A DNA stretch of 54,739 bases from Nitrospiraceae bacterium (GCA_013140715.1 JABFSG010000058.1:1-54739), one strand, 5' to 3'. Positions 48,245-54,739 are shown, counted from the stretch's first letter. Notes: generated by a model from the letters alone, not told the origin. Program-made: numbers and translations.

Positions 48245-51200
48245 GTGCGTACTGAGCAATTTTCCGAACAACACGGCGTAGGCACCCAATTGGGAGACGC
48301 CTCCCAGCCTGCGCTGAACGAGGCAGAGCGAGAGGAGCTTCGAGCCCTGGTGTCACAGGCGGCCGAGGTCATTCCTCCGAACTGGCCGCTTCGGACGTTC
48401 GCCTATCGCAATCCCTTGATCGGGTTCGAACATTTGCCCTTTGATGAAGCTGTCTCGCAAGCGAAGCAAGTGCTTGGAGGAGAAGGCTATCTGTCCACTG
48501 CGGAGTACCGAGCCTGCTACGCCGAGGGACGGATTTCTGAGAAGGAGCTGTTGAGCACCCTGCGATCGCGGGTGCCGGAGCTCGCATCGCAGGATAGTGT
48601 CCGTGCCGGTGAGCGGAGTCTCCATCCTGAAGAGATCCTCCTATTCCACTTTGTGTACGGCATCGATCCGCTCGACCCAAAATTATTGCCATGGCAACTC
48701 ACGGAGGAAGACGCCACCCACCGTATCCGGCCTGATGTTCCCCAGTCCATCAAAGATCGGCTGAGATCGCACGCGGCGGGGCGCGACCCTGAAGCGGTCT
48801 ACATCCGTTCGCTGTGGTCCGGGGCCTTGAAGGCGCTCGACCTCTCCGAAGATGGATCGACTGGCAACCACGGGCATTCCCCCACAACGGCCAAGGCTGG
48901 AGGGTCTGTGCACGCCGAGCATGGACCGACGCAGCAGCGCATCCGCACCGCAGCCGAGATCATCGACGATCTCACCGGCTCTGATCTGAAACGAGAGATC
49001 AACGAACATATGATCAAGTGGTGCGCCGCATTCGTGGATGAAGGCATGGCGGATTGGTCGATGCCCTCGCGCACGCACGGATTTTATCGTGCCTGGCGGG
49101 ATCTCGCGCCGCGCGAGGCTTCCCGATGGACCCTCGGGATCTCCGACTGGGCTCGAAGGGTGGAAGCGCTCCCTGACCGCCCTGAAGACGCCCTCGCGGC
49201 GAGCCTTCACCGCTTGCAGGTCCCCGACCGGCAACGGGAAGATTACCTGCGTCGGCACCTCAGCCAGTTGCCAGGCTGGGCCGGCTATATTCGCTGGCGA
49301 GACAAGAACCCGGATTATCCTGAACAGGGCCGTCACCCAATCGATCCGCTGGAATACCTGTCCCTGCGCGTGTTTTACGAGGCTGAGCTGACCGAGAAAG
49401 TCTGTCGGAGCACGTTGAGCATCAACCCGGCACTTCCCGATCTCCTCGAACGCGCACGATCCCATGATCTGGAGGACGTCGACTCCCATGCCCACGCGCA
49501 CGACGCGTACACGGAAACTGTCTGCCGGGACGTCTGGCGCCTCTTCCATATGGCACAATTCCTCGAGTTTCGCCCGGAGGATCTTCAACACCTGCCACCA
49601 GCGGATGCCAGGTCGTTGCTGTCCTGGCTCGATCGGTTCCCTTCTGACGCGCTCCGTCCTGTGTGGCACGAGGCCTACGAGAAAGAATATCGAAACTCGC
49701 TGATTACGAAGCTGGTAAGTGAGAGGCAGAGATCCGCAGACTACACAAGTAACGAGCGTCCGAGACCCCAAGCGCAAGCCGTGTTCTGTATCGATGCCCG
49801 CTCCAAGCCTTTCCGCCGTCATCTGGAAGCCCAGGGCGAGTACGATACGCTCGGATTCGCTGGATTCTTCGGCACGCCGATCGACTACCGAATACTCGAT
49901 CGGGAGGAAGATCTCCTACTCTGTCCTGTGCTGATCAAGCCAAAATATGTGGTGAAGGAGAAACCGCGGTGGGCTCATAACCCCGTGGTCCAACGCCACA
50001 GGCTTGGAGACCGCTGGAACCAGTTCGGCCGGCACCTGTTTCACCAGGTCAAGGCAAACCCCGCCAGTTCCTATCTCACGTTCGACCTGTTCGGGTTTGT
50101 GTTCGGACTGGCGATGCTGGGAAAGACCGTGTTCTTGAAGGCCTATGAGCCTGTGCGCACGGGGTTGCGTCACTGGCTCACCCCACCTATCTCAACTCGA
50201 ATCCCGGTGGAGAAATTCCCTGAACGGGAGCGTGACGCCTTCATTGCCGGCAACGAGCGGACTTGCATCGCCGAGGTGCTCAAGCAGTGGCTCGACCGTC
50301 GGAACGACGCGGTAAACCTCTCGCAGGAGGTACTCGAAGAATTCCGGCTCGCCGCCCTTCGGGAGCCGGAGGATCGCAGTCACGCGATGCGACAGACCAA
50401 AGCGTCCGAGCGGCTCGGTCTTTCCGTAGAGCAAGAGCATGCCGTTCTGGAGGAACTCCGATACCAGTACGGGCTCAATGCCCACAACCACCATGAGTCG
50501 ATCGAACGCTTCACTGCGCGCAGGTTCTCCCTGGCAGAAAAATCAGCGGTGGTCGAAAACGCGCTCCGTGTCATGAGCCTGACCAGAGGTTTCGCGCGGC
50601 TGGTACTGCTCTGCGCCCATGGGAGCACCACAGAGAACAACCCGTACGCATCCGCGTACCACTGCGGGGCGTGCGGAGGGAATCCTGGTGGACCCAATGC
50701 CAGGGTCTTGGCAGCCTTGGCCAATAGGGCGAATGTCCGCCAGGAGCTACGGAACGTGGGAATCGAGATTCCAGAGGACACGTGGTTTATAGCCGGTGAG
50801 CACAATACGACTACGGACCACGTCACCTTATTCGATCTGGAAGAATTGCCCGAGACGTACCGTCCGGAGGTGCTCCAGTTGCAACATGACCTGGAAGCGG
50901 CAAGATTCCTGAACGCTCACGAGCGCGTTGGTCGATTGCCGGGGGCTCCCAGCCGGCCCTCGCCACTGGCTGCCGCCCGCCATGTAGGGCAAGTCAGCCG
51001 TGACTGGGCACAAGTCCGACCGGAATGGGGACTCTCCAGCAATGCGGCGTTTATTATTGGTCGCCGGTCGCTGACACGAGGCCTCAAGCTTGACGGTCGG
51101 GCCTTTCTCCACAATTACGACCAGCCTCAGGACGAAACAGGCAGGGCGCTGGAGGCCATCATGACCGCCCCGCTGGTCGTGTGCCAAATGATCAATTTTC

Positions 51201-51553
51201 AATATTATTTCTCCGCGACGGACAGCTGGGCCTACGGGAGCGGGACCAAAGTCTTGCACAACGTCGTCAGCGGAGTCGGCGTGATGCTTGGGAGGCACAG
51301 CGATCTGCAAACAGGGTTTCCTTTTCAAGCCCTGACCACGGGCACTCGCCGGTTTCATGAGCCGCTTCGTCTGCTCACCGTGATCGAGGCGGACCCGGGA
51401 AGAATTTCCCAAACCATTTCCCGCCATGTGGTGCTTCAGAATTTTTTCAACAATCAGTGGATCTATCTCGTCTCCTGCCATCCCACCACGGGAGAGTTTT
51501 CGGAGTATCAGCCAGGAGGAACCTGGAAGGCGATTTCATCACCGATATCATGA
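48245..51553 (+). CDS. dabA: DabA-type (DUF2309/UPF0753) inorganic carbon transporter subunit, extra-large
   Basis: This 1102-residue protein matches DabA, the beta-carbonic-anhydrase-like subunit of DAB inorganic carbon pumps. The four zinc ligands known for the Halothiobacillus protein have counterparts: C515 and D517 (VFCIDARSKPF), H792 (CAHGST) and C807 (HCGACGG). Spacing inside each pair is preserved (2 and 15), while the distance between pairs is about 100 residues longer. GLDARSE-type arginine R519 is present. The N-terminal 60 residues carry the IPPNWPLRTFAYRNPLIGFEHLPFDEA signature. The start is GTG at 48245. The stop overlaps the next start as ATGA. Confidence 0.9.
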   Translation: MRTEQFSEQHGVGTQLGDASQPALNEAEREELRALVSQAAEVIPPNWPLRTFAYRNPLIGFEHLPFDEAVSQAKQVLGGEGYLSTAEYRACYAEGRISEKELLSTLRSRVPELASQDSVRAGERSLHPEEILLFHFVYGIDPLDPKLLPWQLTEEDATHRIRPDVPQSIKDRLRSHAAGRDPEAVYIRSLWSGALKALDLSEDGSTGNHGHSPTTAKAGGSVHAEHGPTQQRIRTAAEIIDDLTGSDLKREINEHMIKWCAAFVDEGMADWSMPSRTHGFYRAWRDLAPREASRWTLGISDWARRVEALPDRPEDALAASLHRLQVPDRQREDYLRRHLSQLPGWAGYIRWRDKNPDYPEQGRHPIDPLEYLSLRVFYEAELTEKVCRSTLSINPALPDLLERARSHDLEDVDSHAHAHDAYTETVCRDVWRLFHMAQFLEFRPEDLQHLPPADARSLLSWLDRFPSDALRPVWHEAYEKEYRNSLITKLVSERQRSADYTSNERPRPQAQAVFCIDARSKPFRRHLEAQGEYDTLGFAGFFGTPIDYRILDREEDLLLCPVLIKPKYVVKEKPRWAHNPVVQRHRLGDRWNQFGRHLFHQVKANPASSYLTFDLFGFVFGLAMLGKTVFLKAYEPVRTGLRHWLTPPISTRIPVEKFPERERDAFIAGNERTCIAEVLKQWLDRRNDAVNLSQEVLEEFRLAALREPEDRSHAMRQTKASERLGLSVEQEHAVLEELRYQYGLNAHNHHESIERFTARRFSLAEKSAVVENALRVMSLTRGFARLVLLCAHGSTTENNPYASAYHCGACGGNPGGPNARVLAALANRANVRQELRNVGIEIPEDTWFIAGEHNTTTDHVTLFDLEELPETYRPEVLQLQHDLEAARFLNAHERVGRLPGAPSRPSPLAAARHVGQVSRDWAQVRPEWGLSSNAAFIIGRRSLTRGLKLDGRAFLHNYDQPQDETGRALEAIMTAPLVVCQMINFQYYFSATDSWAYGSGTKVLHNVVSGVGVMLGRHSDLQTGFPFQALTTGTRRFHEPLRLLTVIEADPGRISQTISRHVVLQNFFNNQWIYLVSCHPTTGEFSEYQPGGTWKAISSPIS

Positions 51554-53613
51554 TGATGAACACGGCCTATATTCTGATCCCGGCCCTTCCTTTTGCCGCC
51601 TTCCTGATCATCGCGCTGGGCAGCCGGTGGGTCGGCGAGGCGAGCCATCGGCTGGCAATCCCGGCGGTCTTCGCCTCTTTCATCCTCTCGGTCCTTGCCT
51701 GTGTCGACGTGTACCAAAACGGAGCCAGGTCGATCCCGTTGTATACCATTATCAAATCAGGCAGTCTGACCGTCGAAGCAGGTCTCTACGTCGACGCGAT
51801 CACGGTGCTGCTGCTGTTCCTCGTCACGGGGGTCAGCAGCCTGGTCCATGTCTTTTCCAGCCGATACATGCAGGCGGACCCGCGCTACGCACGCTTCTTC
51901 GCACTGATCGCACTCTTTACCTCTGCCATGGTCATGCTGGTCATGGGCGCGAATCTGTTTATGTTATTCATGTTCTGGGAAATCATGGGGTTGTGCTCGT
52001 ACCTGCTGATTTCCCATTGGTCACGCCGTCCGTCGGCCTGCGACGCCGCGACGAAAGCTTTTCTCGTGAATGGGGTGGCGGATATTGGCCTCGCATTCGG
52101 AATCTACCTGACGTGGGCCACCTTCGGCACACTCGACATCCAGGCGATCTTGTCGGCTGCGCCAAACTACGCCGATCAGACAGTGAACCTCCTTGGATGG
52201 CTCGGTCTTGAGTGGCAGGCCCCCATCCTCCCCGTGATTGCGTTGCTGTTGTTCATGGGCCCGATCGGCAAGTCCGCGCAGATTCCCCTCCACGTCTGGC
52301 TCCCATTTGCGATGGAAGCCCCGACCCCGGTCTCCGCGCTGATCCACGCCGCGACCATGGTCAACGCGGGCGTGTACCTCCTGATCCGCATGGGGCCGCT
52401 GTATGTTCTGGCCCCGACCATCATGACCGTGGTGGCGATCATCGGCGGCGTGACCGCCCTCTTTGCCGCCGTGGTAGCCCTCACCGCATTCGACATCAAG
52501 CGCATTCTGGCTTACTCGACGATCAGCCAACTTGGGTTCATGGTTCTGGCCTGCGGAGTCGGCGCATATGGCGCCGCAATCTTTCACCTCCTCACCCATG
52601 GCGCCATGAAGAGTTTCCTGTTTCTTTCCGCAGGCAGCGCCCTTCACAATCTCGGGGGAACCCACCATGGCGAACAGGCCGAACATGAGGGCCCATCACG
52701 AACACGCGTTTCACGACAACAGGTCCCCCTGTACGTCGGCGCCCTTATCATGGCGTTGATTCCTCCGATCATCATTTTCTGGGGGCCCTATGAACAGTTG
52801 TGGGTCATGTCGCACCTCGCCCAGGCACGCGTTGTCTTCTGGATCTTGGGGCTAGCAACCGTGTTTTTCACAGCGTTCTATCTGTTCCAGGGGACCATGG
52901 ACATCTTCACGCCATCCGGTCGCGTCGACTGGTCCGAGGGATTTCGACCGGGGATGATGCGGCCGCAACTGTTTTCGGCATCGCTGCTCCTGGGACTCAT
53001 TCCCATCACGGCAGGACTCGCCGTGTTCCGCATTCTGATCTGGAGCGGCTTTCTCGAATTCATCTTTCCGGCACTCCCAGGGGCAACCGCTGCTTCGGCG
53101 AAGATTCCGCTTGCGGACTGGTCCCCCGCGAGCCTTATTCCTGGCGTCGGCGTCGCGATAGCCGGCTGGGCCACGGCGTTCTATTTCCATATCTTTCCGG
53201 CCCATCCCTCGGCATGGTGGTCAGAGCGCAAAAAAACATTCTACGTGTTCCTTTTGAACAGAGGGTACTTCGATGAAGTATACGCAACCCTGATTGTTCG
53301 TCCTACCTTACGGGTCGCCTCGTGGCTCTGGAGAGTTGTCGATGGGGGGATCGACCGGGCGTACATGGCAGCAGCCGGCGCCTCAGCCGGTATGGCCCGC
53401 ACGCTATGGGAAGGTGTGGATGTGTGGATCATCGATCGGCCTGCCAACGGGCTTGCCGCCGCATCGCTCAGAATGGCAACGGGACTCTCGAAATTCGTTA
53501 CCCACAACAAGTCCGATGAACCTCTGGTGACGTTTGTTCTTCTGAGGCTTCTGGTGTTTGTCATTCTCTTGCTGGTTTTGGCCGAGCAGATAGAGCATTA
53601 TTTCTTAGGGTGA
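51550..53613 (+). CDS. NuoL/DabB-family membrane transporter subunit
   Basis: The first of three ATGs (51550) overlaps the DabA stop, giving 687 residues and about 16 predicted membrane helices. The NuoL/MrpA-type core is clear: GLYVDAITVLLLFLVTGVSSLVHVFS, MFWEIMGLCSYLLISHW with the buried Glu, PIGKSAQIPLHVWLPFAMEAPTPVSALIHAATMVNAGVYLL with the conserved Lys, and FDIKRILAYSTISQLGFM. Partners of DabA (DabB) belong to this family but are usually shorter (around 550 residues). The C-terminal extension (NRGYFDEVYATLIVRP, and a last helix) is of NuoL type. It should bring an ion gradient to DabA. Confidence 0.88.
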   Translation: MMMNTAYILIPALPFAAFLIIALGSRWVGEASHRLAIPAVFASFILSVLACVDVYQNGARSIPLYTIIKSGSLTVEAGLYVDAITVLLLFLVTGVSSLVHVFSSRYMQADPRYARFFALIALFTSAMVMLVMGANLFMLFMFWEIMGLCSYLLISHWSRRPSACDAATKAFLVNGVADIGLAFGIYLTWATFGTLDIQAILSAAPNYADQTVNLLGWLGLEWQAPILPVIALLLFMGPIGKSAQIPLHVWLPFAMEAPTPVSALIHAATMVNAGVYLLIRMGPLYVLAPTIMTVVAIIGGVTALFAAVVALTAFDIKRILAYSTISQLGFMVLACGVGAYGAAIFHLLTHGAMKSFLFLSAGSALHNLGGTHHGEQAEHEGPSRTRVSRQQVPLYVGALIMALIPPIIIFWGPYEQLWVMSHLAQARVVFWILGLATVFFTAFYLFQGTMDIFTPSGRVDWSEGFRPGMMRPQLFSASLLLGLIPITAGLAVFRILIWSGFLEFIFPALPGATAASAKIPLADWSPASLIPGVGVAIAGWATAFYFHIFPAHPSAWWSERKKTFYVFLLNRGYFDEVYATLIVRPTLRVASWLWRVVDGGIDRAYMAAAGASAGMARTLWEGVDVWIIDRPANGLAAASLRMATGLSKFVTHNKSDEPLVTFVLLRLLVFVILLLVLAEQIEHYFLG

Positions 53614-53615
53614 GC

Positions 53616-54739
53616 ATGGAAAATCCTGCAAGCTTGTTCGGGATCCCCCATCTGGTCAGTTGGATTGTGTTGACCCCGCTCATCGGGCTGGTGATCGTTG
53701 GATTCCTCCCTGTCCGCGCAGGCGGGCGCCATATCGAGGCCATTCGCTGGGTGACCCTCGGCGTCACCTTGCTCACGTTGGGGCTCGCGGTGGGGCTGTG
53801 GGCGAGCTTTGACCACACGGCCGGCGGGCCGCAATTCGTGGACCGCGTGGAGCAGATACCGACCTTGGGCATCCACTACGCGGTGGGTGTGGACGGTATT
53901 AGCTTGCCGCTGGTCCTGCTCACTGCGTTTCTCGCCCCCTTGTGCGTGCTGGGCTCCTGGCGCAGCATCGCCACGAACGTGAAGGCCTTCATGATGCTCA
54001 TCCTCCTGGCGGAAGGGGCCGTGATGGGCGTGTTCACCGCCCTGGACGCCTTTCTCTTCTTTATCTTCTGGGAAATCACGGTGATTCCCACGTATTGCAT
54101 GATTGCGTTCTGGGGAGGCCCCCAGCGGACCCAGGCGGCGATCAAGTTCCTCTTGTTCAACTTTACGGGGAGCCTACTATTGCCCGCCGGGATTCTGGCC
54201 CTGCACCACGTCGGGGGCACATACGACATGCTGGCTCTGATGCAGGTGGAGTATGCGCCGAAGGTCCAGTTCTGGATCTTCCTGGCGCTGTTTCTCGGGT
54301 TTGGCATCAAGGTGCCCATGCTCCTCGTTCATGGCTGGCTCGCCGACGCGCATGGGGAGGCGCCCACCGCGGGCAGCGTCATCCTTTCCGGGCTCCTGCT
54401 GAAGATGGGGGCCTACGGGTTGCTCCGGTTCTGTCTCCCCATCCTCCCCGAGGCCTCGGCGGCGTTCGCCCCGCTCATCCAGTGGCTCTCCGTGCTGGCC
54501 ATTTTGTACGGCGGCGCCATGGCCCTCGCGCAACAGGACTTCAAACGACTCATTGCCTATTCTTCCATCGCGCATATGGGGTTCGTCACCCTGGGTATTT
54601 TTGGGCTCAACACTCAAAGCGTCGAGGGCGCCATCCTCCAAATGGTCAATCACGGGATCACCACCGGCGCCCTGTTCCTCGTCGCCGGGATGTTGTACGA
54701 CCGCACGCATGACCGGACGATCAACAACTATGGGGGGCT
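53616..54739 (+). CDS. NuoM-family membrane subunit, 3' end outside window
   Basis: The ATG at 53616, three bases after the preceding stop, opens a frame to the window end: 374 codons are visible. The sequence shows the NuoM core: YAVGVDGISLPLVLLTAFLAPLCVL, LDAFLFFIFWEITVIPTYCMIAFWGG with the buried Glu, GFGIKVPMLLVHGWLADAHGEAPTAGSVILSGLLLKMGAYG with the conserved Lys, and FKRLIAYSSIAHMGFVTLG. It is co-transcribed with dabA and the NuoL-like gene. DAB pumps described to date use only two subunits, so this third one is unusual and could belong to an extended pump or to a complex-I-like cluster beyond the edge. Confidence 0.9.
   Translation, partial: MENPASLFGIPHLVSWIVLTPLIGLVIVGFLPVRAGGRHIEAIRWVTLGVTLLTLGLAVGLWASFDHTAGGPQFVDRVEQIPTLGIHYAVGVDGISLPLVLLTAFLAPLCVLGSWRSIATNVKAFMMLILLAEGAVMGVFTALDAFLFFIFWEITVIPTYCMIAFWGGPQRTQAAIKFLLFNFTGSLLLPAGILALHHVGGTYDMLALMQVEYAPKVQFWIFLALFLGFGIKVPMLLVHGWLADAHGEAPTAGSVILSGLLLKMGAYGLLRFCLPILPEASAAFAPLIQWLSVLAILYGGAMALAQQDFKRLIAYSSIAHMGFVTLGIFGLNTQSVEGAILQMVNHGITTGALFLVAGMLYDRTHDRTINNYGG

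Follow-up and report, generated by a model that had tools for sequence, protein, structure and literature searches.

DAB pumps are one of the main routes by which chemoautotrophs actively take up CO2, and so far they have mostly been found to consist of DabA and one channel. In cyanobacteria, a small operon combines the gene for the CO2 hydrase CupA of NDH-1MS with genes for dedicated paralogues of the NuoL and NuoM types. The roles of the DabA zinc ligands and of an Asp-Arg dyad come from the structure of DAB2, in which a transmembrane finger of DabA carries Glu444, a residue that substitutes for Lys399/Asp400 of NuoL (PMC13144422). The channel subunit DabB2 has no equivalent of the NuoL helix bundle at the finger position and only a short lateral helix, and the changes E444A or E444Q abolish activity (PMC13144422). 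A COGNAT study (2017) describes 'clade C' ybcC operons with a NuoM gene beside ybcC/NuoL and SulP nearby, and its authors already proposed that more membrane subunits would move more ions (PMC5700660); neither the gene arrangement nor the more-ions idea is new. Two later reports describe an nhaB-bicA-mrp-NuoM/NuoL locus in Ca. Nitrospira alkalitolerans (PMC7784846, 2020) and in lineage IV Nitrospira (PMC12342949, 2025).

A three-gene operon and its surroundings

The whole stretch of DNA analysed (54,739 nt; the window) is contig C32 of a 3.58 Mb host genome that is 99.7% complete, and the nearest named relatives of the locus are Nitrospira metagenome-assembled genomes (MAGs), which puts the host in Nitrospirota, near Nitrospira. 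Three genes lie at its end, all on the plus strand. The first, dabA* (48245..51553, 1102 aa), encodes a tandem beta-carbonic-anhydrase-like catalytic subunit with a full-length PF10070 match (864 bits, profile positions 1-747 of 747). The second, for NuoL* (51550..53613; 687 aa from the ATG at 51550, 718 aa in the longest ORF), passes the TIGR01974 cut-off (499.5 vs 407.5 bits), and the third, for NuoM*, starts with GTG and runs from 53610 to 54739 with the rest on contig C5 (TIGR01972, 442 bits for the part in the window). The close packing of the three genes described in the initial annotation is real, both junctions being 4 bp stop/start overlaps (ATGA, then GTGA), and DabA*, NuoL* and NuoM*, each a member of a dedicated clade, are co-encoded in an operon of overlapping genes. 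Contig C32 ends within the NuoM* gene; an exact 127 bp overlap, unique in the genome, joins it to C5 and completes a protein of 513 aa; the NuoM-like gene reported to follow the NuoL-like gene is genuine.

The sequence past 54739 had been singled out as a place where nuoN or other subunits might lie. It carries usp (universal stress protein, 299 aa) and then a CsoSCA-like carbonic anhydrase gene (353 aa; the profile match is weak), and the C5 continuation 3′ of NuoM* contains no nuo genes and no redox or quinone subunits. The order dabA-L-M-usp is confirmed by a relative, L095, where dabA-L-M-usp-SulP lies on a single contig. A nuo cluster just beyond the contig end is ruled out by C5 together with this locus. 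The host has two clusters of complex I antiporter subunits, on contigs C61 and C31. Neighbours of the DabA* loci include SulP, a SulP-CA fusion and CsoSCA-like CA. Matches to the sigma-54 promoter consensus in the window (24, vs 25 by chance) include none directly upstream of dabA.

Catalytic and channel subunits

The zinc site of DabA* (49787..50665, plus strand) is intact, as had been stated for this DabA of 1102 residues: C515 (49787-49789), H792 (50618-50620), C807 (50663-50665) and the dyad residues D517 and R519 are invariant in alignments A1, A2 and A4. The AF2 model (mean pLDDT 77) has CsoSCA (2fgy; Z 13.0, rmsd 4.7 over 317 residues) as its top structural match and also matches the Porphyridium beta-CA (Z 11.4), consistent with a tandem beta-CA-like fold; the DAB2 chain, whose entry is apparently newer than the library, is not among the matches. 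The spacing between C515 and H792 is 277 in DabA* vs 173 (C351-H524) in H. neapolitanus DabA2. The roughly 100 extra residues noticed at the outset are therefore present, as a helical insert after the finger (residues about 660-757; 50222..50515, plus strand; alignment and AF2 model), but they are not special to this system and represent the common long form of DabA. In alignment A1 the spacing is 271-282 for the window, for genomes G237 and G269 and for every DabB-linked DabA (the DabB-linked values being 269-276 when counted like the 277), and 187-203 for the remaining DabA* relatives. A special adaptation is rejected because the insert occurs in DabB-linked DabA and is missing from most Mrp-linked DabA*.

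The predicted finger of DabA* (49982..50128, plus strand; AF2 model) consists of helices 580-604 and 608-628, with a helix boundary that is uncertain because pLDDT falls below 50 at residues 605-615, around Asp614 (50084-50086). Asp614 is the aligned finger residue at the position of DAB2 Glu444. Since the PDB alignments end before the H. neapolitanus finger, the two fingers are not matched residue by residue, and Asp614 is probably equivalent to Glu444 on the basis of its position and of a conserved VE/ID motif. Among 116 distinct DabA, the finger acid is Asp in 42/42 Mrp-linked DabA* and in all nine readable members of the L-M bin, made up of the genuinely compact loci, two Mrp loci assigned to it on account of long ORFs, and L129, where the NuoM-like and NuoL-like genes are in a different order; in all, about 60 DabA* cover the region, and every one has Asp. 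The acid is Glu in all 33 DabB-linked DabA. A single Glu turned up among the sequences binned automatically as Mrp-linked, in L155_17, which has DabB upstream and so belongs with the DabB-linked group. The 29 further DabA with no assigned context (13 Asp, 16 Glu) again divide by clade.

The channel partner has changed as well. The TM12 motif of NuoL* is FWGPYE (52777..52794, plus strand; alignment) in place of F-[FW]-S-K-D of NuoL, and K399 and D400 are lost in 29/29 NuoL*. As a single branch accounts for the finger change and a single branch for the TM12 change, their co-variation is effectively one event and not many independent ones, and the weight of this single-origin pattern comes from its later conservation, not from repeated origin.

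Other residues set NuoL* apart from DabB. E144, K229, K305, H334 and H338 are retained in every one of the 29 NuoL*, K342 in 28, D178 in 27 and H254 in 27 (two gaps), whereas NuoL* has G, A or S at R175, a residue of the second ion pair in NuoL. NuoL itself keeps all the channel residues compared, K399 and D400 among them (4/4). In DabB, K399 and E144 are each lost in 14/14 and D400 is mostly His; NuoL* has neither the DabB residues at E144 nor the HAG-[IV][IV]N-[AVS]-GG stretch. Its predicted model is nearest to NuoL chains. A phylogeny of the NuoL and NuoM proteins, suggested in the initial annotation, puts each paralogue in a clade of its own, and in these trees (quick searches without bootstrap; node values in brackets) NuoL* is a separate clade (99*) outside DabB. 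By its residues, NuoL* stands between NuoL and DabB, a pattern that fits a NuoL adapted to the finger of DabA while still contacting a neighbouring channel, which E144 is taken to face as in complex I. NuoL* is indeed longer than DabB, as had been remarked, because it has a full lateral helix and TM16; the idea of a long DabB is ruled out by the tree and the residues.

NuoM* likewise forms a clade (98*), its nearest neighbour being the host's own complex I NuoM on C61 (94). The residues E144, K234, K265, H322, H348 and E407 are kept in every NuoM* covering those sites; E144 and E407 are presumably at channel-channel contacts. Every complete compact locus has at least one NuoM gene. The paralogue is M1 in the window, L095 and L099, and M2 in L097, L102 and L104, and both occur only in L101; differential loss from an ancestor with two NuoM genes would explain this distribution.

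The lateral helix of NuoL* (residues 574-652; 53269..53505, plus strand) has a 27-residue repeat and is predicted as one 79-residue helix, followed in the model by the TM16 anchor helix (residues 658-686; 53521..53607, plus strand), with pLDDT for the lateral helix mostly 55-79. The period is 27 residues in most NuoL* and 26 or 25 in a few, and in Mrp-linked NuoL* the helix lengths cluster near 78, 104 and 132 residues, in steps of one repeat. When length is measured to the QxxH-type motif, as was done for the comparison with complex I, it is 57 in the NuoL of the host's standard complex I and 82 in that of its four-channel complex I, and 111 and 138 in two Mrp-linked NuoL*, a similar step. 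A comparable NuoL insert is reported for the Nitrospira 2M complex I, as quoted in PMC9040806. The C-terminal lengths of compact-locus NuoL* are 89, 89, 95, 106, 115, 116 and 142. L101, with two NuoM genes, has 116, and L095 and L097, with one, have 89; the window has 115 with a single NuoM gene, so that helix length and NuoM gene number are not strictly correlated. The lateral helix of the window looks about one repeat longer than that of the host's standard complex I NuoL, yet there is one NuoM gene.

Mrp-linked relatives and the compact form

A named genome scan, together with relatives, gave 37 distinct loci of the DabA* type that are followed by 7.7 kb or more of sequence, mostly on MAG contigs. 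The Mrp set occurs together with NuoL and NuoM in 29 of the 37, and the canonical order DabA-MrpEFG-MbhDE-MrpB-MrpC-MrpD-NuoL-NuoM is exact in 25 of these; in two of the 29, MrpE escaped calling under a long ORF that runs across it. Five loci are compact (four L-M, one L-M-M), and in the other three dabA is without L-M within the retrieved stretch. In L135, Pfam confirmed MNHE, MrpF, MnhG, MbhD/MbhE, MnhB, Oxidored_q2 and Proton_antipo_M, and SulP and a CitMHS-family transporter lie upstream. By a strict distance rule, SulP is directly upstream in 20/55 DabA*-type loci with enough upstream sequence, and an MpsC-family gene adjoins dabA in L062. Hosts include Nitrospirota, Nitrospina, Acidobacteria, Planctomycetota, Myxococcota, Deltaproteobacteria and Gammaproteobacteria, single assignments of which may be wrong as nearly all hosts are MAGs. 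The contig of L101 also carries genes in an order that looks gammaproteobacterial by eye. A search for relatives in viral contigs gave 71 pattern matches, none of which was confirmed.

The survey for the same gene order, another step proposed at the outset, thus finds the DabA-L-M trio recurring in relatives from several phyla. The coupling of DabA to both NuoL and NuoM paralogues, the main claim of the initial annotation, is upheld and conserved in relatives, many of which keep NuoM with the operon, and no nuo cluster lies directly downstream in the host. The presence of the trio inside a whole Mrp set in several phyla points to a larger, as yet undescribed type of CO2 pump. Searches of the open-access literature turned up no report on the DabA-Mrp-NuoLM cluster in full.

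The compact form is a single clade (100*) in both the DabA and NuoL trees. It falls within the Mrp-linked sequences, beside L063, an Mrp-linked locus from a genome of the same family (DabA tree, 89 within a 96* set; NuoL tree, 99*). In the NuoM tree the compact and Mrp-linked forms are sister groups, which neither supports nor contradicts the nesting. MnhB was absent from the seven compact-form genomes searched, including that of the window, and was found in G167, G179 and G269; lacking MnhB, the window locus does not qualify as an Mrp antiporter. NuoH is present in all seven. The nesting and the absence of MnhB make reduction from the Mrp-linked form the best reading of the compact operon.

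Proposed mechanism and comparison with described systems

The trio is probably a multi-channel, membrane-potential-driven relative of the DAB CO2 pump, reduced from a DabA-Mrp-NuoL-NuoM machine. We infer complex formation, finger docking, and ion flow and its direction as follows. NuoL* would stand in for DabB as the direct partner of DabA*, and the hydrophobic finger of DabA*, with Asp614, would occupy the gap left by the lost TM12 Lys/Asp. Inward proton flow through NuoL* would then drive the hydration of CO2 to bicarbonate, in one direction only, at the zinc buried in DabA*. E144 and the long lateral helix of NuoL* may hold NuoM*, in one or more copies, alongside as a second proton channel in series, so that more charge would move per CO2 and the cell could build up bicarbonate when CO2 is lower or the gradient steeper. 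Loss of Mrp subunits would have given rise to the compact form from the larger machine, extant in relatives, in which Na+/H+ antiport may take part. With more reserve, slightly short of an even chance, DabA*-Mrp-NuoL*-NuoM* could be an unrecognised class of large CO2 pumps in nitrifiers and several other phyla, having a complex-I/Mrp-type membrane arm of three ion channels with DabA replacing the redox module, and the window operon would be its minimal, naturally reduced form.

The trio could instead be an exchangeable tip of complex I, comparable to CupA-NdhF3-NdhD3 in NDH-1MS, with NuoM* docking on the NuoN of the host and redox energy, not membrane potential alone, driving hydration. The affinity of NuoM* to the host NuoM on C61 (94), its retained E144 and E407, a NuoL* lateral helix of at least complex I length and the occurrence of NuoH in 7/7 and MnhB in 0/7 compact-form genomes are all consistent with such a tip. 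It is the main alternative but a rather unlikely one, as the presumed parent group combines the trio with all of the Mrp genes and lacks redox subunits, and DabA is not known to be related to CupA. DAB2, moreover, functions as a DabA-DabB heterodimer without redox partners (PMC13144422).

Less probable still is that only NuoL* serves DabA*, as its DabB, with NuoM* a structural, separate or vestigial leftover of Mrp that moves no ions. A single channel does suffice for DAB2 (PMC13144422), and compact loci differ in their NuoM paralogue (M1 or M2), so its exact identity seems not to be critical, but the conservation of all NuoM* channel residues, the retention of at least one NuoM in every complete compact locus, and the overlap of the nuoM* start with the nuoL* stop codon argue against this. 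An outward or sodium-driven system, that is, an MpsAB/Mrp-like bicarbonate/cation transporter or antiporter and not a proton-driven CO2 hydrase, is very improbable, for although Mrp-linked relatives carry Na+/H+ antiporter genes, often with SulP and a CitMHS-family gene, at least one (L062) has an MpsC-family gene next to dabA, and MpsAB has been proposed to use Na+ (PMC13144422), the compact form lacks Mrp-specific subunits, the zinc site of DabA* is intact, and DAB2 works without sodium (PMC13144422).

If the multi-channel, potential-driven pump is the correct reading, a two- or three-channel version of DAB would alter the energy balance of carbon uptake in nitrite oxidisers, organisms with little energy to live on. 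The window operon and its relatives would also provide a series, made by nature, of complex-I-like channel arms that carry out no electron transfer, are coupled to CO2 hydration and vary in lateral-helix length and channel number. Such a series would make the in-series coupling of antiporter-like subunits, a long-standing question, directly testable.

Among described systems, NDH-1MS differs in that its hydrase, CupA, has no known relation to DabA and its power is supplied by the photosynthetic complex I. The modules of Mrp antiporters and the membrane-bound hydrogenase (MBH) are shared by the relatives, which carry MrpE, F, G, MbhD/E, MrpB, C and D; the window genome, however, has no MnhB, and DabA replaces any redox module. 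The COGNAT 'clade C' operons are alike in having ybcC/DUF2309 upstream of a nuoL homologue, with NuoM and SulP nearby, but the accessible portion of that report makes no mention of Mrp genes, finger or TM12 residues, the lateral helix or a CO2 function (PMC5700660). The published gene list of the nhaB-bicA-mrp-NuoM/NuoL locus looks like that of the Mrp-linked relatives, including SulP (BicA) and a Na+/H+ antiporter; in the excerpts of those reports the genes are described as antiporter genes, mostly in alkaline/saline adaptation, and DabA is not mentioned. In DAB2 of H. neapolitanus, as in the window locus, the PF10070 subunit has every zinc ligand, the Asp-Arg dyad and an acid-bearing hydrophobic finger, and the NuoL-superfamily partner is without the TM12 Lys/Asp. 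Unlike DAB2, the window locus has a partner, NuoL*, that lies outside the DabB clade and has E144, a long lateral helix and TM16, together with a second channel, NuoM*, an Asp instead of a Glu in the finger, dabA as the first gene and the long form of DabA.

Genes flanking the compact dab operons

Just 5′ of dabA, the window carries an ORF of 136 aa (window:47725-48135) that is similar to the N-terminus of hydrogenase-4 subunit B, and is probably the remnant of an antiporter-like gene. An NtrC-type sigma-54 response regulator (window:44516-45874) is also found upstream of the dabA-NuoL*-NuoM* operon, and response-regulator ORFs occur upstream at loci L095 and L051 as well.

Genes for CsoSCA-like carbonic anhydrases lie near the window's compact dab operon, on the contig that continues its NuoM* gene (C5; L017:2163-3224), and near the compact operon of L095 (L095:20956-22158); the L095 protein is above the Pfam cut-off, the window-genome copy below it. 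The compact dabA-L-M-M operon of a Methylococcaceae MAG has, divergent from it, a gene for a SulP transporter-beta-carbonic anhydrase fusion (L101:7077-9494).

Mixed and doubled loci in relatives

Four loci (L079, L080, L116 and L155) carry a gene of the DabA* type, i.e., the clade of the window's DabA, side by side or convergent with a DabB-linked dab operon, and the far side sometimes bears part of the Mrp set. Genome G157 has a divergent second Mrp-like gene set (L066:622-7257) adjoining its DabA*-Mrp cluster.

A second dab locus and DabB of 850-910 aa

The window genome carries a second dab locus on another contig, C69 (L003:11917-18121), encoding DabB (566 aa), a 443-aa protein that matches the antiporter profile in its second half only, and DabA (1112 aa), with an MpsC-family gene nearby (C69:62709-63038). 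At other loci, such as the anammox L117 and L118, the DabB adjoining DabA is 850-910 aa long, and these proteins look like fusions of DabB with a half-antiporter resembling the 443-aa protein of L003.
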